Below are positions 11,013 to 21,852 of a stretch of 64,000 nucleotides of DNA, in pieces (position 1 is the stretch's first letter; every line of letters begins with the position of its first letter). Under the pieces are notes generated by a model. The model did not search any database. It was not told where the DNA came from and worked only from the letters and a program-made list of their open reading frames with translations. Origin of the DNA: Acidobacteriota bacterium. Lineage in GTDB: Bacteria; Acidobacteriota; Terriglobia; Terriglobales; Acidobacteriaceae. Both the position numbers and the translations under genes were made by a program. The stretch is taken from the NCBI GenBank assembly GCA_031296105.1, contig JARLGJ010000012.1:1-64000 (forward strand), written 5' to 3'.

Positions 11013-11612
11013 TTACCGCTGCACAATCGTTACCCGCTCGTTGCCCGGCAGGGCCGAGACGATGCGGTTCTTCATGGGGAAGGTCGAATCCACGCCGATG
11101 CGGCTGCCGAACTTCGGACGCAGAAAGCGCGCCGCAAAGTACTCCAGGGCGATCTTCGGGATCTGTATGCCGTCGAAGGTCACCGACTCAATCTGCACGT
11201 GAGCCATGCCATGGTCGGCCGAGGCCACGGCCATGCCCACCACATGATGCTGTCCGGTGAAGAACTGCAAAAAAGGATTGCCGCGGGTCCGTCCGTTGGT
11301 GAGTTGGTCAAAGTCCACGTCGGCCTCGCCGCGCACCTCGCCCGGACGCGAGCTGAAGTGCAGGTGAGAAATGCCCGAGGGGAGCCGTCTGCCGTCGTTG
11401 AGATAGGCATTGCATTCCGCGGCTGTCAGCACGGTAGGCGTGGTCGAGGGATGCTCGCTGGCACCGTTCTCGCGCAGGTAGGCGATCGTGCGCGTGGCGT
11501 TTTCCAGTTCGGGAGAGCGGCTGGTGTCCTGTCCGGGCGCAGACGGCAGCAACGCCGCCAGCAGGAGAAGCAGGCTGAGGCTGCGGCGGTGCGTGTACGG
11601 CAAACGATTCAT
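11013..11612 (-). CDS. Small exported protein downstream of AsmA-like gene, function unknown
   Basis: The product has 199 residues with a clear Sec signal peptide (basic MNRLPYTHRR, then SLSLLLLLAALLPSAPGQ). The mature part has no motif I recognise; conserved-looking features are LTAAECNAYLN and alternating beta-type stretches (VRGEADVDFDQL, VVGMAVASADHGMAHVQIESVTFDG). The ATG at 11612 overlaps the TGA of the AsmA-like gene (ATGA), so translation is coupled, which also decides the start over the longer frame reaching 11801. The beta-rich pattern and the pairing suggest a periplasmic lipid- or envelope-related partner of the AsmA-like protein; this is inference. Confidence 0.7.
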   Translation of the reverse strand: MNRLPYTHRRSLSLLLLLAALLPSAPGQDTSRSPELENATRTIAYLRENGASEHPSTTPTVLTAAECNAYLNDGRRLPSGISHLHFSSRPGEVRGEADVDFDQLTNGRTRGNPFLQFFTGQHHVVGMAVASADHGMAHVQIESVTFDGIQIPKIALEYFAARFLRPKFGSRIGVDSTFPMKNRIVSALPGNERVTIVQR

Positions 11613-14122
11613 CGGACGCGGCGGGTGGGAGCGGCCGTCTCCGGAGCCGTCAGCACGGGTTTCTGCAAGGTTCCGCCGATCTTCCACGCCGCACCTCCCG
11701 CTTCGGTAAATACCAGCGCCAGCGCCGAGTCGCGCGAGATGGTGCCGGAAAACTTCAGCTCGCCGCCGGTGGTTTTCCAGGTGGTATCCGTAAAGCTCCA
11801 TCCGTCGCCCGACAGCTTCACCTGTCCCTCGCCGCTGGCCACGCGCATGGGCGCCTTGCCGTCCGGCGCAACCTTCAGCGTGCCGCCGTTCCAGTGGAAC
11901 GACGCCTCGCCTTCGGCCGAGTGCAGCAGTGTGGCGGCGTCGGCGCCGCTCATTGCCAGCTTGTACTTCATGTCCACCGTGCCGCTGCCCAGCGCGCCCT
12001 TCAACAGCGTGGAGAGCTTGTCGGTCTGCACTCGCGTAGCCGTGCCCTCGCCGCTCAGCTTCGGCGCGGCGCCGGAGAAGTCCAGCGTCCAGTCGCCGTC
12101 CACCGTGCCGCCAAAGACCTCCGTTTTGCTGCCGGTCAGGCGCAGCACGCCGTCGGCGACGGCGAAGTTCGTTTCAAAGCCCGCGCCGGTCGAGCCGTCC
12201 AGCACCACGCGGCGCGCGGTGAAGTGCCCCTTGGCGTGCAGGTTGTCCATCACGTTGTTCACCGCGCCGGCCCGCGAGAGCAGTCCCAGCCAGGCTCTCT
12301 TCTTCTGCCCAGGACTCAGCAGGTCATTCCAGCGCTCGGGATTGAATTCGTCGGTGGCCAGGTCGAAGGTCGATTCACAGCCGCCATCAACCACGCAGTG
12401 CCGCGGAAAGTTGGCGCCGCCGGTCAGCGACAGCTTGCCCACCGTGGCCGCGGCGTTGTGCACCGTCATGCGGAAGCCGTCGAACTCGACGTGCGCGGCG
12501 GCAATCTCCACCGGCGCCGCCAATCCGGGAACCTCGACGCGCGCGCCCTTCAGAAATGCCGCGCCAGTCACCGATGGATTGTCAAAGTCCTTCCAGTTGG
12601 CGGATATATGCAGGTCCAGCGCCGCCGGACCGCTCAGCGCCAGCCGTGGCGCGGCAATGCCGGCCGCCTGCGCGAACTGCTGCAAGCGCTCCAGGTGCGC
12701 ATCGCCCTTCAGGTGGAAGTCAAAGCGTTCGTCGTCCAGCAAACCTTCCATCTGCGCCGGAGAAGCTGCTCCCAGAGGCAGGTCGAAGGCCCGCACCAGC
12801 AGTGCGCGCGGCGCGTTGACCGGCATCTGGTTGTGTCCGCGATGGTGCGCCGTGGTGGTTGCCGCAACCGTGCCGGCCGTGGCCGTAATGTGCGGCAGAG
12901 ACAGATCCTTGCCCAGCACGCCGGAGTGCAGCACAAAGTCGCTCACCGACAGTTCGCCGATCCATGACGACGGCGCTTCGCTCGTCTTCTGCCCGTGGAA
13001 GGTTGCCGCAATCGTTCCCTGCGCCGTCAGGTCAGGCGGCAGGGCCTGCTTGGCGTGGCGCACAATGTTCAGCACGGCGTTGGCCGGCAGGCTCTCGGCG
13101 GAGAGGGTCAGGTCGTAGCGCGGACGGCGCACGCCGCGCACCGCGCCGCGCACGGTCAGTACGCCGGCGTCCAGCGGCAGGCGGCATTCCGCGCCGTGGA
13201 TATCCTTGGCGCTGGCGTCGATTTCGCCGGTGCAGGTGGCGTTCAGGTTGGCCGTGTTGCCGGCCTGTATGTCGTAGCGGCGGAAGTCGCGCAGGCGCGA
13301 GGCGGTGGCGATCTTCAAAGCACCGGGTGTTCCGGTCAGTTGCGCGCTGGTATCCAGTTCGCCGCGCCAGCCGCGATCCTCGCCGTAAATCAGGCGCGTC
13401 AGGTTGCCCAGTTGCAGACGCTCCCAGGTGAAGTTGGCCTTCACCGGAGCGTCGCGCAAGGTGGCTGCCCGCTGAATGTTGACCTCGCCCTTCAAGGTGC
13501 CGGTGTCGGTCACGGGCATGTCGGTGCGCACCGGATGAGCCTCAATCCTCATGCGCCACTGGTTTTCCGCGGGACTGAACAGCGAGAAGTCGGCGTCGGT
13601 CAGGCTGAAGACGCTCTTTTCCAATCCGTACTTGAAGTTGATGCGCCCGTTGGTGGCGGCAATGTAAGGAAAGCGCAGCGCTCTTGAAGTGACGGGCGCC
13701 GTCGTGGGCGCGGCCGTCGTCTGCGTGGCGCGCCACAACAGAGACTCCAGGTTCCAGCTCTCGTCGTCGCGCTCCACCAGGTTCAGGCTGGGATAGTTCA
13801 GGTCCAGGCGCGCAATCTCCAGACGCCCGCGCCACAGCGAACTCAGCCGCAGGTAGGCCGTCACTTCGTCGGCGTGCAGAATAGGCTCGGCGCTGTACCT
13901 GGGATCGTCGCCAATGGAGACGTTTTCCATGTAGAAGCCGGGCTGCGGGAGCAAGCGCAGTTCCACCGAATCCACCGTCACCGGGCGGCCCACTGCCTGG
14001 CCAATCGAGGCCGCGATGCGTCCTTTATAGCGGCCGATATTGATGAATGGAGGCAGTACGGCGGCCGCCACGGCCGCCGCCACAATTCCCAGTGCCCACA
14101 GGCGCATTTGTTTGGCTTGCAT
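11609..14122 (-). CDS. AsmA family envelope protein
   Basis: The 837-residue protein starts with one membrane anchor (RLWALGIVAAAVAAAVLPPF) followed by the AsmA signature region: INIGRYKGRIAASIGQAVGR, then VELRLLPQPGFYMENVSIGDDP and the LxxLxxGRLEIARLDL stretch. The rest is a long periplasmic beta-rich region, as in AsmA/TamB-like proteins. Family members are bridge-like proteins linked to lipid movement and outer-membrane assembly. It overlaps lepB by one base (TAATG) and the next gene by four (ATGA), so this is an operon with the signal peptidases. Confidence 0.8.
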   Translation of the reverse strand: MQAKQMRLWALGIVAAAVAAAVLPPFINIGRYKGRIAASIGQAVGRPVTVDSVELRLLPQPGFYMENVSIGDDPRYSAEPILHADEVTAYLRLSSLWRGRLEIARLDLNYPSLNLVERDDESWNLESLLWRATQTTAAPTTAPVTSRALRFPYIAATNGRINFKYGLEKSVFSLTDADFSLFSPAENQWRMRIEAHPVRTDMPVTDTGTLKGEVNIQRAATLRDAPVKANFTWERLQLGNLTRLIYGEDRGWRGELDTSAQLTGTPGALKIATASRLRDFRRYDIQAGNTANLNATCTGEIDASAKDIHGAECRLPLDAGVLTVRGAVRGVRRPRYDLTLSAESLPANAVLNIVRHAKQALPPDLTAQGTIAATFHGQKTSEAPSSWIGELSVSDFVLHSGVLGKDLSLPHITATAGTVAATTTAHHRGHNQMPVNAPRALLVRAFDLPLGAASPAQMEGLLDDERFDFHLKGDAHLERLQQFAQAAGIAAPRLALSGPAALDLHISANWKDFDNPSVTGAAFLKGARVEVPGLAAPVEIAAAHVEFDGFRMTVHNAAATVGKLSLTGGANFPRHCVVDGGCESTFDLATDEFNPERWNDLLSPGQKKRAWLGLLSRAGAVNNVMDNLHAKGHFTARRVVLDGSTGAGFETNFAVADGVLRLTGSKTEVFGGTVDGDWTLDFSGAAPKLSGEGTATRVQTDKLSTLLKGALGSGTVDMKYKLAMSGADAATLLHSAEGEASFHWNGGTLKVAPDGKAPMRVASGEGQVKLSGDGWSFTDTTWKTTGGELKFSGTISRDSALALVFTEAGGAAWKIGGTLQKPVLTAPETAAPTRRVR

Positions 14123-14907
14123 TAGCGCACCACGTGCAACATGCGCGACCAGCGGGTTTCATTGAAGAAGTGAGTGACGATGTGCGCCAGGAAGCCGAGG
14201 CGGTCACCGATGCTGGTCTTTGTCCACTGATCGTCGGGCGTCATGAAGGACCAGTAGTTGAACATGGGCCGGCCCACCACGTTTTCGCGCGGAATGAAGC
14301 CCCAGTAGCGGCTGTCGTAGCTCACGTCGCGGTTGTCGCCCATGCCGAAGTACGCGCCGGGCGGCACCACGATCTCGTCGCCCTCTATGTAGGCGCGCAT
14401 GGTGTTCTCCCACGGCATGTAGAGCTGGTCGTCGGGCGTGGGAGGAATGCTGGGGAAGTAATCCTTGTACTGGGTGCGTTGCGTGGGATCGGTGTGTACC
14501 GCGTAAGGCTCTTTCTGCGCTACGCCATTCAGGTACACCACGCCATTCAACAGGCGGATGTGATCGCCCGGCACGCCGATGACGCGCTTGACCACGAACA
14601 GGCCCGGCTCGGCCGGAGAGACGAACACCACGATGTCGCCGCGCCGGGGATCGCGGTAGGGAATCAGCTTGTCGATGAAGCCCGACTTCGGCGCCAGGCG
14701 GATGCGGTCCACAAAAACGTGATCGCCGATCAGCAGCGTCGAAACCATCGAGGGCGTGGGAATCTCGAACGCCTGCATGCAGAAGGTGATGATGAACAAG
14801 CCGATCACCAGCACCGACGCAATGGAGGCGATGAACTCCGGTGTGGTCTCTTTGGGTTGCTCGGGCTGCTCGGCTGCGTTCTTCTCTTCTTTGATTTCTT
14901 TCGCCAA
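14122..14907 (-). CDS. lepB: Type I signal peptidase (copy 1)
   Basis: This membrane-bound serine protease removes signal peptides from exported proteins. It has 261 residues. A single N-terminal membrane segment (residues ~26-46) is followed by the catalytic Ser53 in PTPSMVSTLL, the catalytic Lys107 in VVKRVIGVPGD and box E GMGDNRDVSYDSRYWG. It differs from copy 2 in the Ser motif (PTPSM against PSGSM). The short acidic/basic cytoplasmic N-terminus (KEIKEEKN) is unlike copy 2. It is followed directly by the AsmA-like gene with a one-base overlap. Confidence 0.92.
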   Translation of the reverse strand: MAKEIKEEKNAAEQPEQPKETTPEFIASIASVLVIGLFIITFCMQAFEIPTPSMVSTLLIGDHVFVDRIRLAPKSGFIDKLIPYRDPRRGDIVVFVSPAEPGLFVVKRVIGVPGDHIRLLNGVVYLNGVAQKEPYAVHTDPTQRTQYKDYFPSIPPTPDDQLYMPWENTMRAYIEGDEIVVPPGAYFGMGDNRDVSYDSRYWGFIPRENVVGRPMFNYWSFMTPDDQWTKTSIGDRLGFLAHIVTHFFNETRWSRMLHVVR

Positions 14908-14934
14908 CTTGGTCCAATCCTGAGGCGCCGGGCC

Positions 14935-15777
14935 TCAGGGGGCCAGGCGCAGAATGCGGTGCCAGCGGATCGCGCCGAAGAGCTGCGAGACGCGGGCACG
15001 CAACGTGAAAAGTCTATCATTGTGCGCGCCGCTTGCCACAGTGTCATCGTCCGCATCTTCGTCGTCCGGCGCGGCGGAGGCGATGCTCAGGTACAGAAAC
15101 ATGGGACGCCCCACAATGTTGGCCCGCGGCACAAAGCCCCAGTAGCGGCTGTCCAGGCTCTCATCGCGGTTATCGCCCAGCATGAAATAACAATCCGGCG
15201 GCACCGTCAACTCACCCTCGCGCACCGCCGTCCGCATCTGTTTGGTCCAGGCCGCGGTCACGTTTTCGTTGTAGCGGTTGCCGTGCGGAAATTCATCGCG
15301 ATACTCATCGGTGGCCGCGTCTTTGAACACCGCATAAGGCTCGTTCAGCGCCTTTCCATTCACAATGGCGCGCCCGTTCGAGAGCCGTATGCGGTCGCCC
15401 GGCAATCCGATCACCCGCTTCACAAAGTGTTGCTCCGGATCCACCGGGTAGCGGAACACCACGATGTCTCCTCGCCGCAGGGGACGGTAGGGAAGCAGCG
15501 GGAGTTTTGCTTCCGGAGCGAAGCGCGTCTTGTCCACCAGCAGGTAGTCGCCCACCAGCAGCGTGTCTTCCATCGAACCCGAAGGGATGCGGAATGCCTG
15601 CATCACAAAGGTGATGATGAACATGGCGATGGTCAGCACCAGCAGTGCGAATTGCAGGTGCGTTGCCGGGCTGGCAATCTCCGGCGTCTCCTGCTCTGGC
15701 CTTGCAGGCGCGGCAATCGGGGCGGCGGCCGCGCCGGAAGCAGTAACCGCCGCGTTCTCGCTCTCCGGGGAAATCAT
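14935..15777 (-). CDS. lepB: Type I signal peptidase (copy 2)
   Basis: This is a second complete type I signal peptidase, 280 residues from the ATG at 15777. After an Ala/Pro/Glu-rich cytoplasmic tail comes one membrane helix (residues ~41-60), then Ser68 in IPSGSMEDTLL, Lys120 in FVKRVIGLPGD and LGDNRDESLDSRYWG. The start at 15777 is 7 bases past the rnc stop; a longer frame upstream would overlap rnc in a basic, unlikely stretch (residues such as KKRPARRRPKKR). Two adjacent lepB genes suggest either divided substrates or simple duplication; both catalytic dyads are intact. Confidence 0.9.
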   Translation of the reverse strand: MISPESENAAVTASGAAAAPIAAPARPEQETPEIASPATHLQFALLVLTIAMFIITFVMQAFRIPSGSMEDTLLVGDYLLVDKTRFAPEAKLPLLPYRPLRRGDIVVFRYPVDPEQHFVKRVIGLPGDRIRLSNGRAIVNGKALNEPYAVFKDAATDEYRDEFPHGNRYNENVTAAWTKQMRTAVREGELTVPPDCYFMLGDNRDESLDSRYWGFVPRANIVGRPMFLYLSIASAAPDDEDADDDTVASGAHNDRLFTLRARVSQLFGAIRWHRILRLAP

Positions 15778-15784
15778 GCGCGGA

Positions 15785-16516
15785 TCATCCACGGGCTGGT
15801 TCCTCGAGGCGCTCCAGCGCTTTTTCGGCCGCCGTCTGGCTGGCCGCTTTTTTCGTGGCGCCGCTGGCCGTGCAGGTGAAGTCTTCGTTGCCCTCGCCGT
15901 CGCACACAATCACCTTCATCACGAAGGTGCGGTCGTGCGCCGGTCCGCGCTCGCTCTCCAACTCGTACGACGGCTCGGGGCGTCCCTGCGCGCGTAGCGT
16001 CTGCTGCAGGCGCGACTTGTGATCGTCCACCAGAACCTGGTCATGCGCGCCCGCCAGCCGCTCCAACTCGGGATCGAGGATGTAGGTCACCACCACGCGC
16101 CGCGCCGTCTCATAGCCGCCGTCCAGGTACAGCGCCGCCAATACGGCCTCCACCGCGTCGGCCAGCAGAGCCGTCTTGCGCCGTCCACCGGTCTTCTCCT
16201 CGCCGTGCCCCAGGCGCAGGTAGCTGCCCAGTGAGAGACTAGTGGCGCACTGCACCAGATGGCGCGCGTTCACCAGATGGGCGCGCAGCTTGCTCAGGTG
16301 GCCCTCCTGCGACTCCGGAAAGCGCAGCACCAGCTCCTGGCTGGCCACCATTTGCAACACGGCATCGCCCAGGAACTCAAGCTGCTCGTTGTCGCCGCCC
16401 GCGGACGCATGTTCGCGCGCATAGGAGCTGTGGGTCAGCGCCCTCTGCAAAAGTTCGCGGCGCTGGAAACGGTATCCCAGCGCCTCTTCCAGGGTGTCGA
16501 GTGATATTTGCTTCAT
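15785..16516 (-). CDS. rnc: Ribonuclease III
   Basis: This double-strand-specific endoribonuclease processes rRNA precursors and regulatory RNA. The 243-residue protein has the RNase III signature NEQLEFLGDAVL (Glu47, Asp51), the second acidic pair in LLADAVEAVLAALY, and a C-terminal dsRNA-binding domain ending ATKKAASQTAAEKALERL. Its place just ahead of lepB is a common bacterial arrangement. ATG at 16516 gives a normal N-terminus. Confidence 0.94.
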   Translation of the reverse strand: MKQISLDTLEEALGYRFQRRELLQRALTHSSYAREHASAGGDNEQLEFLGDAVLQMVASQELVLRFPESQEGHLSKLRAHLVNARHLVQCATSLSLGSYLRLGHGEEKTGGRRKTALLADAVEAVLAALYLDGGYETARRVVVTYILDPELERLAGAHDQVLVDDHKSRLQQTLRAQGRPEPSYELESERGPAHDRTFVMKVIVCDGEGNEDFTCTASGATKKAASQTAAEKALERLEEPARG

Positions 16517-16552: not shown

Positions 16553-17398
16553 CTATTTCTTCTCCGTGGCCGGAGCGGTTTGCGCCACCGTGGCCAGTTT
16601 GCGCAGGCGATCCTTCTCTTGCGCCGCAAGCTGATGCACTTCGCTGTTGGTCTCGGACGTCCCCAAGGCCTTGTCCACGTTGGCCTGGGCGCCGCTCAGG
16701 TCGTTGGTCTTGTCGTTGGCCACGGCCAGACGCAGATACACCACCGCGTCCGTGTGCTCCTTCTCTTCGGCCACCGCGGCGTTGTATTCCTTGATGGCGT
16801 TGAAGTAGTCGGCGCGCTTGAAGAACACCGTGCCCTGCACCTCGTGCGCCGTGCCGCGCAACTGCGCCATCGCCGCCGCGAACTGCTCCGGCGTCATGTT
16901 GGCCGGCATGGGAATGGATGCCGAATACAGCAGAGCGCTCTTGGCGTCCGCCGAGGCCTCTTGCAGGCGGTCGTCGCGGTCCAGGTCGTCGTCATGCGTG
17001 CGCTCGGCCAGAATCTGTCCCGCCGTGGCCAGGGCTACCGCGTTCTCCGGATCGTAGCGCACCACGGCCCGCGCCATCTCCAGCGCCTTGCCGGTGTTGC
17101 CAGCGTTCTGATACGCGCCCATCGCCATCTGGAACAGGTAGGCGCGCAGCTCGCTGCTGGTGAAGCGCTGGGCAAAGTCCGAGGCCGCTGCCTCCAACTG
17201 GCCAGGATCCTGCAGGGCCGCCGCGGTCTTGAAGGCGTCGTACTCTGCCTGCGTCTTGGGCTGCGGCTGCTTCCTGGCCGCCGGGGCTTGCGACGCCGGG
17301 GCGTCCTTGGACGCGGTCTGGGCCAGGGCGTTCGGTGCCGCCGGCAGGGCGGCGCTCAGCAGCAGGGCTGCAACGGTCATCGTGAATTTCTTTTTCAT
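16553..17398 (-). CDS. Exported TPR-like protein
   Basis: The 281-residue product has a signal peptide (MKKKFTMTVAALLLSAALPAAPNALAQ) shown here only as its start MKKKFTMTVAALLLSAAL and cleavage region ALAQ. Degenerate tetratricopeptide-like helix pairs follow (LEAAASDFAQRF, ALEMARAVVRYDPENAVAL, YFNAIKEYNAAVAEEKEH). It is probably a periplasmic or envelope scaffold protein; no partner can be named. The gene starts 10 bases after the stop of the preceding TPR-like gene and lies 37 bases upstream of rnc, so it is probably co-transcribed with both. Confidence 0.75.
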   Translation of the reverse strand: MKKKFTMTVAALLLSAALPAAPNALAQTASKDAPASQAPAARKQPQPKTQAEYDAFKTAAALQDPGQLEAAASDFAQRFTSSELRAYLFQMAMGAYQNAGNTGKALEMARAVVRYDPENAVALATAGQILAERTHDDDLDRDDRLQEASADAKSALLYSASIPMPANMTPEQFAAAMAQLRGTAHEVQGTVFFKRADYFNAIKEYNAAVAEEKEHTDAVVYLRLAVANDKTNDLSGAQANVDKALGTSETNSEVHQLAAQEKDRLRKLATVAQTAPATEKK

Positions 17399-17407
17399 TT
17401 CCGGAAC

Positions 17408-18919
17408 CTATTCCTTTGTGTTGTCGCTGCTGGAATGCCGCGACGGAGCATGATAGGCCTGCTGCAATCCTTTTTCCGCCGCCGCCTTCACCTCGGGCGT
17501 GGCATCGTCGGACAGCGCCGCCTGGTACTGCGCCACTGCTTCCTGCCGCTTTTCCTGCAAGTCCAGCAAACGGCCCAGGTACACGTGCGACCAGCCGCGG
17601 ATCTTCGCGTCCGTGGAGGCCTTGGCCGCGCGCTCGAACGAATCCTGCGCCTCTGCCAGCTTGCCGTCCGCCACCGCGACGCGCGCCAGCACGAAGAAGG
17701 CGCGTCCCTGGTCCTGCTTGTTGTCGATCGCCTGGCGGGCGTAGTTGCGCGCGCCGTCAAAGTTGCCGCTGGCCAGCGCCCGCTCCGCCAGGTCCAGCAG
17801 AATGTCCTTGCGCTGCGCGCGGCGCACCAGTTCGTTGGTGGAGCTTTGCAGGAACGGCACCTTGGCGGCAAACTTCGTCTGCTGCTCCACGTCAATGTCG
17901 TGCAGCCAGTTGGCGTAGGACTGGTCCAGCCCGATCTCATCCGTCTCGAACGTTTGTAGCTCGTGATAGAAGTACATCGTCAAAATGAAGCCCTGCCGCG
18001 TGGCCAGCCAGGCGGCCGCTTCCTTGGCCTGCTCCGGTCCCTTGCGTCCGCCCACCTGCCGCGCTTCAATCGCCTTGATCAGCGATTCCGTGGTCAGCAG
18101 GCCAATGTCGAAGCGGTAGCTCTCATCCAGCGCCGAGGACTTCACCGTCTCCAGCAGCGGATAGAGCCTTTGCAGAGTGGTGCCGCGGCTCATCAGCCTG
18201 GGGTCCAGAAGGTAGTGCAGATAGGTGTGCCGGAGCGGGTCCAGCCGCAGCGGCTCGTTCGACGATGGCGAAAGCACCATGAAGTAGTCCTCGCCGTAAT
18301 TGCGCGAGTTGACCTCGCTGGGCGCCGCCAGCGGCTCCAGGTAAATAAGGAAGTTGTGCTGAAAGTAGCTGCTCAGGTTGCGCTTCAGGTACAGGTCGGT
18401 GCCGAGCAGCATATCGGCCACGGGCTTGTGGGCCTGCTGCACCAGTTGGTCGTAATCGGCGCGGTGGCGCAGCCATATGGAGTCCAGGTTCGCCGCCTGG
18501 CTGAACTTCTGCAGCAGGGGCACAAAGCCCAGCACGAAGATGGCATCCGGCGGCAGGTTCGCCTCGCTTGTTTTAAGCTGCACCCGGGCGTTGTTCTCCA
18601 GGTTCAGTCCCAGGGAAACGTAATTGGAGAGCGTGCGCGAGGCCGTATCCTGCTGGTGATCCTCGTAGTAGCCGCACATGTTGCGCAGCGCGTTCTGCGC
18701 CGCCGCGGATTGCGCCGCCTGCAATACTTCGGCGCGGATCTGCCCGCGCAGCGGCGTGCTCTCACTCAGTCCCGTGTCATAGCCGCAGGCGTTGATGCCG
18801 GCCATCACGCTGAAGAGGCCTTCGCTGGTTTCCACGCTCATGTGCCCTTGCGCCTGTGCCGCGCCGGCCGTCGCCAGCGCCAGCAGGAGCGAGAAAAAAA
18901 TCGGAATTCGGGTGTTCAG
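17408..18919 (-). CDS. Exported repeat protein with C-terminal TPRs, predicted CTG start
   Basis: The product begins with a signal peptide (NTRIPIFFSLLLALATAGAA, cut after AQAQ) and ends in TPR units (ERALASGNFDGARNYARQAI, AFFVLARVAVADGKLAEAQ, LGRLLDLQEKRQEAVAQYQ). The middle ~250 residues are helical with no motif I recognise. The start is unusual. Three ATG codons at 18941-18949 lack a good ribosome-binding site and put ten extra residues in front of the signal peptide, whereas a perfect AGGAGG (18925-18930) sits 5 bases before a CTG at 18917-18919. I place the start there (503 residues); an ATG at 18949 would give 513. Function unknown; likely periplasmic. Confidence 0.7.
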   Translation of the reverse strand: MNTRIPIFFSLLLALATAGAAQAQGHMSVETSEGLFSVMAGINACGYDTGLSESTPLRGQIRAEVLQAAQSAAAQNALRNMCGYYEDHQQDTASRTLSNYVSLGLNLENNARVQLKTSEANLPPDAIFVLGFVPLLQKFSQAANLDSIWLRHRADYDQLVQQAHKPVADMLLGTDLYLKRNLSSYFQHNFLIYLEPLAAPSEVNSRNYGEDYFMVLSPSSNEPLRLDPLRHTYLHYLLDPRLMSRGTTLQRLYPLLETVKSSALDESYRFDIGLLTTESLIKAIEARQVGGRKGPEQAKEAAAWLATRQGFILTMYFYHELQTFETDEIGLDQSYANWLHDIDVEQQTKFAAKVPFLQSSTNELVRRAQRKDILLDLAERALASGNFDGARNYARQAIDNKQDQGRAFFVLARVAVADGKLAEAQDSFERAAKASTDAKIRGWSHVYLGRLLDLQEKRQEAVAQYQAALSDDATPEVKAAAEKGLQQAYHAPSRHSSSDNTKE

Positions 18920-19090
18920 GGAAGCCTCCTGGAAGCTAGTCATCATCATCGTTCCGGCTTTGCTGCCAGTGTAAGAGGGCACGGGCCGGAGACGCAAATC
19001 CTTTGCGGGAAGGGGGTTCAGGCGGGGGAAAAGGAACGATTCAGGATACGTCCGCGGCGGTTCCTGGGGACCGCCGCGCGAAAAGCCGAT

Positions 19091-19747
19091 CTAACCGCCG
19101 ACATTCACGTCGGAGAACGAGAGCACCACCATTCCACTCGTCGGCACGCCAAAGCTGGTGGCCGGGCGGAACTGGGTAAAGATCAGCGCGTTCTTCATCT
19201 GCGGTGTCAGCTCCGTCCCCGGACCGCTCAGCAGACGGTAATCCTGCACCCGCCCCTGGGGATCGATGATTGCTTCCACCATCACGCCGTCGCCGCTGCC
19301 GCTGCTCAGCCCAAAGGGAGCGCTAGTCATCTCCGGCGGCGTGTAGAGCGCGGTGGGAACCACGTCGTTGCTCGTCCGCGCGTGCGCCGGAACCAGCAAT
19401 CCGATCAGCAGCCCGAAGATCAGCACCGCCGAAACCAGTCCGGCCGTGGCCGGGAACATGAACGCGTTCAGCGCGTTCTCCCAGCGCACCAGCAGGCTGT
19501 CCCAGCGCGACATGCGCCGCGCCGCCAGTTGCTGCGAAGCCGCCAGCCGCAGGCGCAACTCCAGGTTCGCCGGTACCGGCTGCGGCGGGATATAGGCCAT
19601 CATGCGGCGCGCCCGCCGCATGATGGCGTAGCGCTCACTACATTCCTCGCATTCATCCAGATGACGGCCCACCTGCTGTTCGCGGCTCTCCTCGAGCATC
19701 GCGTCCAGCAGCGGGGAAAGCAACTTCCTGGCTTCCGAACACCTCAT
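19091..19747 (-). CDS. Anti-sigma factor with C-terminal TonB-C-like domain
   Basis: The 218-residue protein has an N-terminal zinc-binding anti-sigma domain (zf-HC2/ZAS) with the H-x3-C-x2-C motif in HLDECEEC, one membrane helix (LVSAVLIFGLLIGLLV, residues ~104-119), and an extracytoplasmic domain that looks like the TonB C-terminal fold (VMVEAIIDPQGRVQDYRLLSG, then LTPQMKNALIFTQFRPAT). It overlaps the sigma factor gene by four bases (ATGA), the normal arrangement for a membrane anti-sigma factor. The TonB-C-like sensor part is uncommon and may bind an envelope partner; that role is inference. Confidence 0.82.
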   Translation of the reverse strand: MRCSEARKLLSPLLDAMLEESREQQVGRHLDECEECSERYAIMRRARRMMAYIPPQPVPANLELRLRLAASQQLAARRMSRWDSLLVRWENALNAFMFPATAGLVSAVLIFGLLIGLLVPAHARTSNDVVPTALYTPPEMTSAPFGLSSGSGDGVMVEAIIDPQGRVQDYRLLSGPGTELTPQMKNALIFTQFRPATSFGVPTSGMVVLSFSDVNVGG

Positions 19748-20436
19748 GATGTGACCTCAATCTCCCGGTTGCCGGACGCCATCTTGCGCGCGTTCCCAGC
19801 CCCTTCCGGAGCCAACTCCGGGGTAAATTCGCCGGCATAGCGAGCCAGACGGCGGCGCAGGGCTTCGCGCCCGCGCACCAGCCTGGACTTCACCGTGCCC
19901 AGCGAAGTTTCGGTCATCTCTGCGATTTCTTCATACGACAAATCTTCCATGTCCCGCAGGACCACGGCCGTGCGAAACGGCTCCGGTACTTCCTTCAAGG
20001 CCTCTTCCAGGCGCGCCCGGACTTCGCCGCGCGCCACCAGGTCGAACGGCGTGTCGCGCCGGTCCACCAGCGAGTTGCGGACGACCCGCGCGCCGTTCTC
20101 CTCCGCTTCGTGCTCGATCGGAGTCTCCTGCGCTTTATGGCGGAAGAACCAGCGGCGCCGGTTGCTCGCCTCGTGAATGGCAATGCGGTACATCCAGGTC
20201 TTCAGGCTGCTTTCGCCGTTAAAGCTGGCCATGCCACGGAAGACCTTGATGAATACTTCCTGGGTTGTGTCGGGGGCATCCGCCGGGTCGTCCAGAACCC
20301 GGTACACCAGGTTGTAGATGGCCGCGTGATGGAGGGAGATGAGGCGTGAGTAGGCTTCCTCGCTGCCCGCCTTTAATTCGGCGACAAACGCGAGATCGTC
20401 CTGCCGTATTTCCCAGGCGCCAGTAAACCCGCCCAT
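19744..20436 (-). CDS. ECF RNA polymerase sigma factor (RpoE-like)
   Basis: The 230-residue protein carries region 2 (AIYNLVYRVLDDPADAPDTTQEVFIKVF, seen here as YRVLDDPADAPDTTQEVF) and region 4 with a helix-turn-helix (SYEEIAEMTETSLGTVKSRL). It would direct RNA polymerase to stress or envelope promoters and be held by the anti-sigma factor downstream. The start is the ATG at 20434-20436, preceded by TAGGAG 8 bases away; the in-frame ATG at 20472 has no ribosome-binding site. A motif like GGGAAC-N18-GTCTA lies 150 bases upstream (20593-20621), which fits autoregulation. Confidence 0.9.
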   Translation of the reverse strand: MGGFTGAWEIRQDDLAFVAELKAGSEEAYSRLISLHHAAIYNLVYRVLDDPADAPDTTQEVFIKVFRGMASFNGESSLKTWMYRIAIHEASNRRRWFFRHKAQETPIEHEAEENGARVVRNSLVDRRDTPFDLVARGEVRARLEEALKEVPEPFRTAVVLRDMEDLSYEEIAEMTETSLGTVKSRLVRGREALRRRLARYAGEFTPELAPEGAGNARKMASGNREIEVTS

Positions 20437-20591
20437 GGTTGCAACTCCTACGGCACTCACCGCAACCTCCATGATAAATCGATCCGCACAACCCGGACAA
20501 CATTTTCCGCTTGCTACTTCTTCCTGAAAGAGCCATCGCCGCTAGAGACCACGGCATGTTCCGGAGGAGTTTTTCTCCTTCGACATACCTA

Positions 20592-20621
20592 ATAGACTCC
20601 GCGCAGGCAAAAAATGTTCCC
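20592..20621 (-). promoter_or_regulatory. Predicted ECF-type promoter of the sigma factor gene
   Basis: On the minus strand GGGAAC (20621-20616) is followed after 18 bases by GTCTA (20597-20593). This matches the general ECF promoter layout (GGAAC at -35, GTC at -10). The expected start is near 20586. Confidence 0.5.
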
Positions 20622-20686: not shown

Positions 20687-21319
20687 TCAATGGGTGCTTG
20701 ACGCCGAACTCTTAGCCTTTTTCCCCGACGGCTGGTTGTCATCCACCACAATCCGCTTGGGAGCCTTGGACGGGGCGGCATTGGTCTGCGCCCGCACCTT
20801 GGCCAGCTCCAGGTCGCCATGGAATGAAAGCTGGTCGATACGCTCGGCCAACTGGCGGCGCACGCTGTCGAGCTGTCCCAGATCGGCCTCCAGAGCCCCG
20901 TAAGACTCGCGTCCGGCAAAGGCCGCGGCCCCCGGCGCCAGCAGGGAAAAGGCGTCCGTCAGCGCATTTAAATTCCTGTAAAGACGAAAGTTGGCATTCA
21001 TCGAGCCGGGCGCCGAGCGCGCCTTCTGGATCAGTTCCGGCACCGCGTAAGCCAGGTTGCGGCGTATCGAGTCGCTGGTGCTCAGAGACTGCTCGCGGTC
21101 CGCCGAGCTGGTCTTCCAGCGGTCGATCTGCAAGCGGGAGACGTCGCCGTCCAGCCGCTGCGCCGTGTCGCGAAGCTGGTCCAAAAGCCCGTAAAGAGCG
21201 GCATCGGCCGGCATCGCGGCGTTTTCCGGCGGGCGGGCCGCGCTCGTTTGCGCCACCGTCGTCAGGGGCATTGCCAAAGCCAGGGTCAAACAGACCGTGG
21301 CGCGAATCATTTTGGTCAC
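20687..21319 (-). CDS. Exported helical protein, function unknown
   Basis: The 210-residue product has a signal peptide (MIRATVCLTLALAMPLTTVAQ core) and a largely helical mature part (YGLLDQLRDTAQRLDGDVS, LGQLDSVRRQLAERIDQL), ending in a basic, Ser-rich tail (PSKAPKRIVVDD, KKAKSSASSTH). I do not recognise the family. The GTG at 21317-21319 lies 5 bases after AGGTGG (21325-21330) and is preferred over the ATG at 21310, which would be 14 bases away. It is followed by the sigma factor gene on the same strand, with a predicted internal promoter between. Confidence 0.65.
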   Translation of the reverse strand: MTKMIRATVCLTLALAMPLTTVAQTSAARPPENAAMPADAALYGLLDQLRDTAQRLDGDVSRLQIDRWKTSSADREQSLSTSDSIRRNLAYAVPELIQKARSAPGSMNANFRLYRNLNALTDAFSLLAPGAAAFAGRESYGALEADLGQLDSVRRQLAERIDQLSFHGDLELAKVRAQTNAAPSKAPKRIVVDDNQPSGKKAKSSASSTH

Positions 21320-21852
21320 AGATACCACCTCACTTCGTTGGATTCCCGTTGGACCGCCTGGGATGTCGCTCCCGGCCACGCACCTCGATATGTACCACAC
21401 CGATACCCTGAATGAGTGCTCATCGACCATCTCAATCCCCTTTGATCCTTATTGCTCAATGGTATCCGTCGAATTTACCAGGGGTTCATACCATTTCCCT
21501 TTCGACACAAAACACTGCCAAGTTCCAGATCGGGATTACGTTGGGATGAAGTTCGGCCATGCCTGTCTTTGACAGGAAAAAATCTAATTAGACTGGAAAT
21601 ACCCCCAAGGCGGTAGCCGTAAATCCGGCTCCGCCTTCTTTAACCCCTGGATGCGGTACCCGCAAGTTCGTCCCTTCGTCGATGCGGGAATGAGGCAGAG
21701 CACGCGCGGCAGTAGATCGCAGCAGCCCCTTTAGTAGCAGTCTGGGTCCCGGAAGTCAGTGTGCAGTGAGTAAGGTTGGGTTTGTCTGCGTGCAGTATGC
21801 GGCTCTGCGTTTTTCAACTTCTTCGACGTGAACTTTGTGTGAAGGGTGGGAA
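21320..21852. other. Divergent intergenic region upstream of the exopolysaccharide locus
   Basis: 533 bases without a credible gene and visibly lower in GC than the flanks. It must hold the promoters for the exported helical protein (minus) and the wbaP-like gene (plus). Visible structures are a TTGACA at 21569-21574 without a convincing -10 partner, a 6-bp hairpin CCTGTC-TTT-GACAGG (21562-21576), and a 10-bp stem with one bulged base (21609-21619 with 21626-21635) followed by TTCTTT. The last could be a leader terminator or structured RNA; no known riboswitch consensus was matched. Confidence 0.4.
21609..21641 (+). other. Strong hairpin in leader of the EPS locus
   Basis: GGCGG-T-AGCCG pairs with CGGCT-CCGCC around the loop TAAATC and is followed by TTCTTT. 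It lies about 210 bases upstream of the wbaP-like start. It may be an attenuator or the terminator of a short transcript. Confidence 0.4.

Follow-up and report, generated by a model that had tools for sequence, protein, structure and literature searches.

The DNA analysed here (the window) comprises 64,000 nucleotides of contig JARLGJ010000012.1 from a member of the Acidobacteriaceae (phylum Acidobacteriota, class Terriglobia). On its minus strand, a gene for an ECF sigma factor (19744-20472; Sigma70_r2 and Sigma70_r4_2 domains) and a gene for an anti-sigma factor of 218 amino acids (19091-19747) share 4 nucleotides. The anti-sigma factor unites several parts in one chain, all encoded on the same strand: a zinc anti-sigma (ZAS, zf-HC2) domain (residues 1-72; 19532-19747) with the ligands C3, H29, C33 and C36; a single transmembrane helix (residues ~101-120; 19388-19447), placed by the hydropathy maximum and by a helix at residues 100-123 of a structural model; a juxtamembrane segment (residues 120-125; 19373-19390), marked out by column conservation and a shuffle test; and a TonB-C-like, predicted periplasmic domain (residues 135-218; 19094-19345), recognized by profile comparisons and structure matches. 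A predicted autoregulatory ECF promoter, GGAAC-N18-GTCTA, precedes the sigma factor gene (20593-20620, minus strand) and was identified by its conservation across loci.

The pair heads a conserved block, for which neighbours were counted in the best 80 of 103 loci from named genomes, restricted in each case to loci with enough sequence. Downstream on the minus strand are genes for a secreted TPR protein (17408-18997; 52 of 74 loci) and a second TPR protein (16553-17398; 51 of 70); rnc, encoding ribonuclease III (15785-16516; TIGR02191, 220.6 bits; 47 of 67); two copies of lepB, encoding signal peptidase I (14935-15909, TIGR02227, 160.9 bits, 40 of 60; and 14122-14907, TIGR02227, 141 bits); and, at the end of the block, an AsmA-family protein gene (11609-14122; PF05170, 85 bits; 33 of 53). 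The conserved order in the best 80 of 103 loci is sigma, anti-sigma, TPR, TPR, rnc, lepB, AsmA-like; in the window the signal peptidase I genes stand in tandem 3' of rnc (14122-15909). Upstream of the sigma factor gene, a 247-residue protein (20687-21430) that is kept beside the sigma factor in 40 of 65 eligible loci had no match at cut-off in a family search.

An initial annotation of the window, made from its letters alone, had described an HC2-type zinc domain and one membrane helix in this chain, and both are borne out, the first by a zf-HC2 match above cut-off (E 3.7e-6, 27.3 bits; cut-off 22.2) and the second by the agreement of hydropathy and model. The zf-HC2 domain is present in all 38 full-length relatives, and all 40 of the 40 sequences aligned retain C3, H29, C33 and C36, giving the Hx3Cx2C motif with an upstream ligand that characterizes class I ZAS proteins; the adjoining ECF sigma factor gene is likewise as expected of that class. 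TIGR03988 (RsrA) matches the anti-sigma factor with E 5.3e-9, under its cut-off, and the N-terminal half of the model resembles RsiW (Z 7.9), MucA (7.1-7.2) and RslA (7.0) in VIA, whose results speak only for the structure families that it lists. These matches assign the zinc domain, on the cytoplasmic side, to the RsrA/RsiW kind, and the domain together with the gene pairing predicts that the protein holds the adjoining sigma factor in check. It belongs neither to the FecR type, FecR and STN domains being without a Pfam match in it at E<=10, nor to the RseA/RseB system: RseA_N was matched at E<=1 by only 4 of 38 relatives (best E 0.0011, 20 bits, cut-off 24), and a search of the window's own genome found no RseB homologue.

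The C-terminal part required several lines of comparison. With the window protein alone, the Pfam profile TonB_C gave a sub-threshold match (E 0.039, 14.8 bits, gathering cut-off 24.6) of residues 155-203 to profile positions 18-67 of 79, which does not place the protein in PF03544, and TIGR01352 scored 14.3 bits against a cut-off of 27.1. Among 38 full-length relatives (alignment A1, without L047, which has undetermined bases, and L048, at a contig end), 17 matched TonB_C at E<=1; of the 10 listed singly, L025 clears the gathering cut-off with 26.5 bits, and 4 have no TonB_C match or match other family names only. Profile-profile comparison of the family with eight TonB_C domains of the window's own genome gave E 6.8e-6 (probability 84.6), and comparison with 49 tonB-operon domains gave a score of 39.8, as against a mean of 11.4 (sd 2.6, maximum 24.3) in 200 column shuffles and 11.1 for the reversed profile. 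The HMM search that the initial annotation had proposed as a check of the resemblance stays below the cut-off for the window protein alone; one relative passes it, and the comparison of profiles gives a significant match.

Predicted structures agree with the profiles. An AlphaFold model of the complete chain (pLDDT 76.3, pTM 0.35) retrieved with Foldseek TonB-family C-terminal domains as all of its first 13 matches (best E 4e-4), and a model of the TonB-like domain alone (pLDDT 80.1, pTM 0.68) retrieved TonB-family chains as 12 of its top 12. The best solved match in VIA is the TonB of the FoxA-TonB complex (6i97_D; Z 8.5, rmsd 2.6 over 82 residues, model residues 135-217), although a Z near 8 is by itself weak evidence for the TonB fold; the assignment stands because all top structure matches agree and the profile evidence is independent of them. 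The sequence match leaves out the first 12-17 columns of TonB_C, so the opening helix is either absent or altered. At the level of the superfamily, profiles and models confirm a TonB C-terminal fold, and the initial annotation was right to place a transducer-type fold in the anti-sigma factor and to set it apart from the FecR type.

Of 41 related Terriglobia genomes, 39 gave a match to this architecture, the two others being one in which the sigma factor gene is cut by a contig end (G013) and one that is 54% complete (G038); the sigma factor gene lies beside the anti-sigma factor gene in 40 of 40 loci. A search of named GTDB genomes matched 103 stretches; the 80 best were analysed, and all of these have titles of Acidobacteriota groups. 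In these best 80 of 103 loci every protein ends in V-x-G. A sigma factor gene is present in 78 of the 80 and stands at its usual place in 77 of them; the best sigma match of L074 lies elsewhere, and the two loci where none was found (L091, L120) begin <200 bases from a contig end. Five proteins from relatives in family f5 and genus g35 (L166-L170) have lost the Cys/His ligands, although helix, TonB-like domain and adjacent sigma factor gene are all retained, which makes the C-terminal domain the more durable part there. Across the phylum, the model has matches at 1e-10 in 226 of 396 genomes; outside Terriglobia most of the model matches listed span only the generic zinc and membrane part, and whole-model matches come from four genomes (G089, G411, G397, G169). 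Nine outgroup proteins (L157-L165) appear by eye to have, in most cases, a divergent TonB-like C-terminal part. By these matches, the fusion is also present in some other acidobacterial families, so that a survey for such fusions, proposed with the initial annotation, gives a positive answer within Acidobacteriota.

The sequence upstream of the sigma factor gene is conserved in a manner that suggests autoregulation. GGAAC-N18-GTCT was found there in 73 of 75 loci drawn from the best 80 of 103, with a diverged spacer (it is missing in L051 and L074), and the motif occurs 80 times in total on both strands of the 80 loci, ~2.07 million bases; a relaxed form is present in 16 of 16 loci of the sister family and outgroups. 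ECF factors that regulate themselves typically have such a conserved promoter before their own gene. Transcription of the operon by the sigma factor that it encodes is accordingly a well-supported prediction. Among 19 sigma-70-family genes compared in the window's genome, this one alone has a GTCTA-type motif upstream.

A broad regulon in the window's genome was considered and is not supported by the motif: the looser pattern GGAAC-N18-GTCTA gives 5 matches against 14 for the reversed control and so carries no genome-wide signal. One site lies ~60 nt ahead of a gene for an HtrA-type (Trypsin-PDZ) protease (L185 1501-2709, contig C43). HtrA was rejected as a regulon member, the strict motif being present in 1 of 30 orthologues and GGAAC-N17-19-GTCT in 2 of 30; two copies from the same genus keep a variant with a changed -35. 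Six further motif matches (L182, L257, L258, L259, L183, L186) have no recognized link, and a further form of the pattern, with CGGTGTCTA, has 24 listed matches.

The same signature stands before the genes of the TonB system. GGA[A/G]C-N17-19-GTCTA was found upstream of tonB(-exbB-exbD) or secF-tonB in 41 of 49 genomes (27/30 in the window's own family, 12/13 in the sister family and 2/6 in other families, by strict count), where 0.05 are expected from a background of 1 match in 376,700 bases; the 49 exclude G010 and G038, which among the 51 genomes have no secF match. A TonB_C gene follows secF on the same strand in 30 of 30 loci of one comparison and in 49 of 49 of another. The promoter, mostly reading GGAGC-N18-GTCTA, separates secF from tonB in the window's family; the sister family has it ahead of secF, with secF and tonB usually a short gap apart. 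The eight loci without the strict motif include four near misses (GTCA at the end in G021 and G025, GGATC in G022, GTCT without the final A in G435) and one with a copy further upstream (G040); nothing clear was seen in G004, G039 and G437. The gene order in the window's genome is secD-secF-tonB-exbB-exbD-exbD (L296:2478-8212, contig C66), protein export genes and the TonB system lying side by side.

Searches of all sequence in the 51 genomes lead to the same genes. The strict form GGAAC-N15-GGRGTCTA has 41 matches against 15 for the reversed control, and 34 of the 41 are at the sigma factor gene (21), secF-tonB (10) or a second tonB (3), a count made without G040:C113, G429:C58 and G431:C190; L182 has no recognized link. 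The 21 are 17 placed at the sigma locus by position and 4 further sigma factor genes from 20 other sites inspected, of which 10 stand before secF, 3 before a second tonB, 4 before a sigma factor gene and 3 before nothing recognizable. In three genomes of one genus (L254, L255, L256), a strict promoter of the sigma type immediately precedes a second TonB-like gene. For the GGAGC form there are 26 matches, compared with 6 for the control, and 19 of the 26 are before tonB by position; the window's genome has a single such site, at tonB. There the -35 is GGAGC, not GGAAC (an A to G change), so another ECF factor could read this promoter, and the genome has 17 sigma-70-family matches over cut-off. 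Genome comparison found no natural loss of the sigma factor with the tonB promoter retained, or the reverse. We predict, with good support, that the sigma factor transcribes tonB-exbB-exbD (in the sister family from the promoter before secF-tonB), a probable link that comes from promoter sequence only; the shared signature ties the sigma factor to the TonB system independently of the domain evidence.

The length of the chain limits where the TonB-like domain can act. The domain starts ~15 residues past the membrane helix and its first strand ~35 residues past it, whereas in operon TonB well over 100 residues separate helix and domain. Neither the long periplasm-spanning linker of a TonB energy transducer nor linkage to exbB/exbD is found, the linker being ~15-35 residues and the neighbours sigma, TPR, rnc and lepB genes. 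Judging from these lengths, the domain is expected to remain close to the inner membrane. A partner located there is more plausible than outer-membrane receptors; examples are TonB, ExbD and peptides that emerge from the Sec machinery.

We consider it somewhat probable, on the promoter and domain evidence combined, that an autoregulated ECF sigma factor controls the TonB system with the TonB-like domain of its anti-sigma factor as a sensor at the inner membrane. In such a circuit, the sigma factor would transcribe its own operon and tonB-exbB-exbD; the TonB-like domain would read the state of the TonB system near the inner membrane, for example by strand pairing with TonB, ExbD or a TonB-box-like peptide; overload of the system or a shortage of TonB would change the bound state of the domain; the anti-sigma factor would then be cut by a site-1 protease followed by an RseP-type site-2 protease; and the released sigma factor would raise the production of TonB-ExbB-ExbD. 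The more specific proposal of a sigma factor dedicated to TonB homeostasis, in which the domain gauges free TonB, ExbD or TonB clients and the feedback loop is conserved across Terriglobia, is advanced more tentatively.

The window's genome has site-2 protease candidates, with five matches to the M50 family. Directly after the helix the family has the consensus P-x-x-[LVA]-x-A (residues 120-125 in the window protein), and P..[AVLI]xA occurs at this juxtamembrane position in 71 of 110 sequences, compared with a mean of 30.8 and a maximum of 44 in shuffles; it is a possible signal-peptidase-type cleavage site. In combination with lepB in the conserved block, it suggests, speculatively, signal peptidase as the site-1 protease, the role that signal peptidase is reported to have for RsiP of Bacillus thuringiensis (PMC8844934).

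The same features could belong to a general envelope-stress system of the RpoE/RseA-like kind, in which the TonB-like fold is a lid that senses misfolded envelope proteins, signal peptidase I makes the cut and tonB is one target among many. Consistent with such a system are the conserved neighbours rnc, two lepB and the AsmA-family gene, in an arrangement that may parallel the rpoE/lepB/rnc neighbourhood of Escherichia coli; TIGR02939 (RpoE) among the best matches of the sigma factor; the placement of secF, in the sister family, behind this promoter; the enrichment of the juxtamembrane motif over shuffles, together with the reported precedent of RsiP for cutting by signal peptidase (PMC8844934); and the HtrA gene with the motif in the window's genome. 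However, that motif is strict in just 1 of the 30 HtrA orthologues, genome-wide motif matches are few and are concentrated on sigma, secF-tonB and tonB, and the RseB homologue sought in the window's genome was not found, and we regard a general stress response as unlikely, if still the strongest competitor of a TonB-sensing circuit.

It is improbable that the TonB-like domain is a dimerization or stability module, one that sets dimers of the anti-sigma factor and has no part in sensing the TonB system: self-pairing occurs among TonB C-terminal domains, and the short linker and the fixed V-x-G C-terminus fit a compact structural module, but the promoter signature before tonB is then left unexplained. 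Competition with TonB for the TonB boxes of outer-membrane receptors, as the initial annotation had envisaged, is more improbable still because, although the closest solved match is a TonB in complex with a receptor, a linker of ~15-35 residues, in place of the >100 of operon TonB, is by its length too short for crossing the periplasm.

The protein is a membrane anti-sigma factor of a new variant architecture with a probable role in TonB feedback. If the TonB-sensing circuit is true, a sigma factor is dedicated to the TonB system and is governed by a sensor that uses the TonB fold. The field has yet to settle how cells adjust TonB supply to the many receptors that compete for it. The Acidobacteriota, abundant in soil, have many proteins linked to TonB; the window's genome has 11 TonB_C matches. 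Two further TonB_C proteins are encoded on the window's contig outside the window (C37:100037 and C37:106973). The promoter sites make the circuit directly testable. A search of openly accessible journal papers found neither a published description of a fusion of the zf-HC2/TonB_C type nor a published tonB-controlling sigma factor of similar kind.

Each of the known systems shares part of this arrangement. The anti-sigma factor has the C-terminal domain fold in common with TonB energy transducers (PF03544), from which it differs in having no long linker, in its N-terminal anti-sigma domain and in adjoining a sigma factor gene rather than exbB/exbD. With the class I zinc anti-sigma factors RsiW, RsrA and MucA it shares the cytoplasmic zinc domain, and to our knowledge these have other periplasmic domains or none; the main text of the anti-sigma classification paper (PMC7406223) makes no mention of TonB. 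Cell-surface signalling of the FecR/FoxR type likewise joins an ECF sigma factor and a membrane anti-sigma factor to the world of TonB, but the periplasmic part of FoxR, as described in PMC11637429, is beta-solenoid-like and STN-like and meets the signalling domain of the receptor. The nearest known system is PUMA3 (VreA-VreR-VreI) of Pseudomonas aeruginosa, described in PMC2729926 as an ECF chain with a TolA/TonB-C-like domain whose regulon includes exbB2 and exbD2 and in which the tonB homologue PA0695 is among the genes treated as PUMA3-regulated. In PUMA3, according to the same source, the domain follows an STN domain in VreA, a periplasmic protein of its own that is mostly soluble, and VreR serves as anti-sigma factor; in the Terriglobia system, by contrast, the zinc anti-sigma factor carries the TonB-C-like domain within its own chain.
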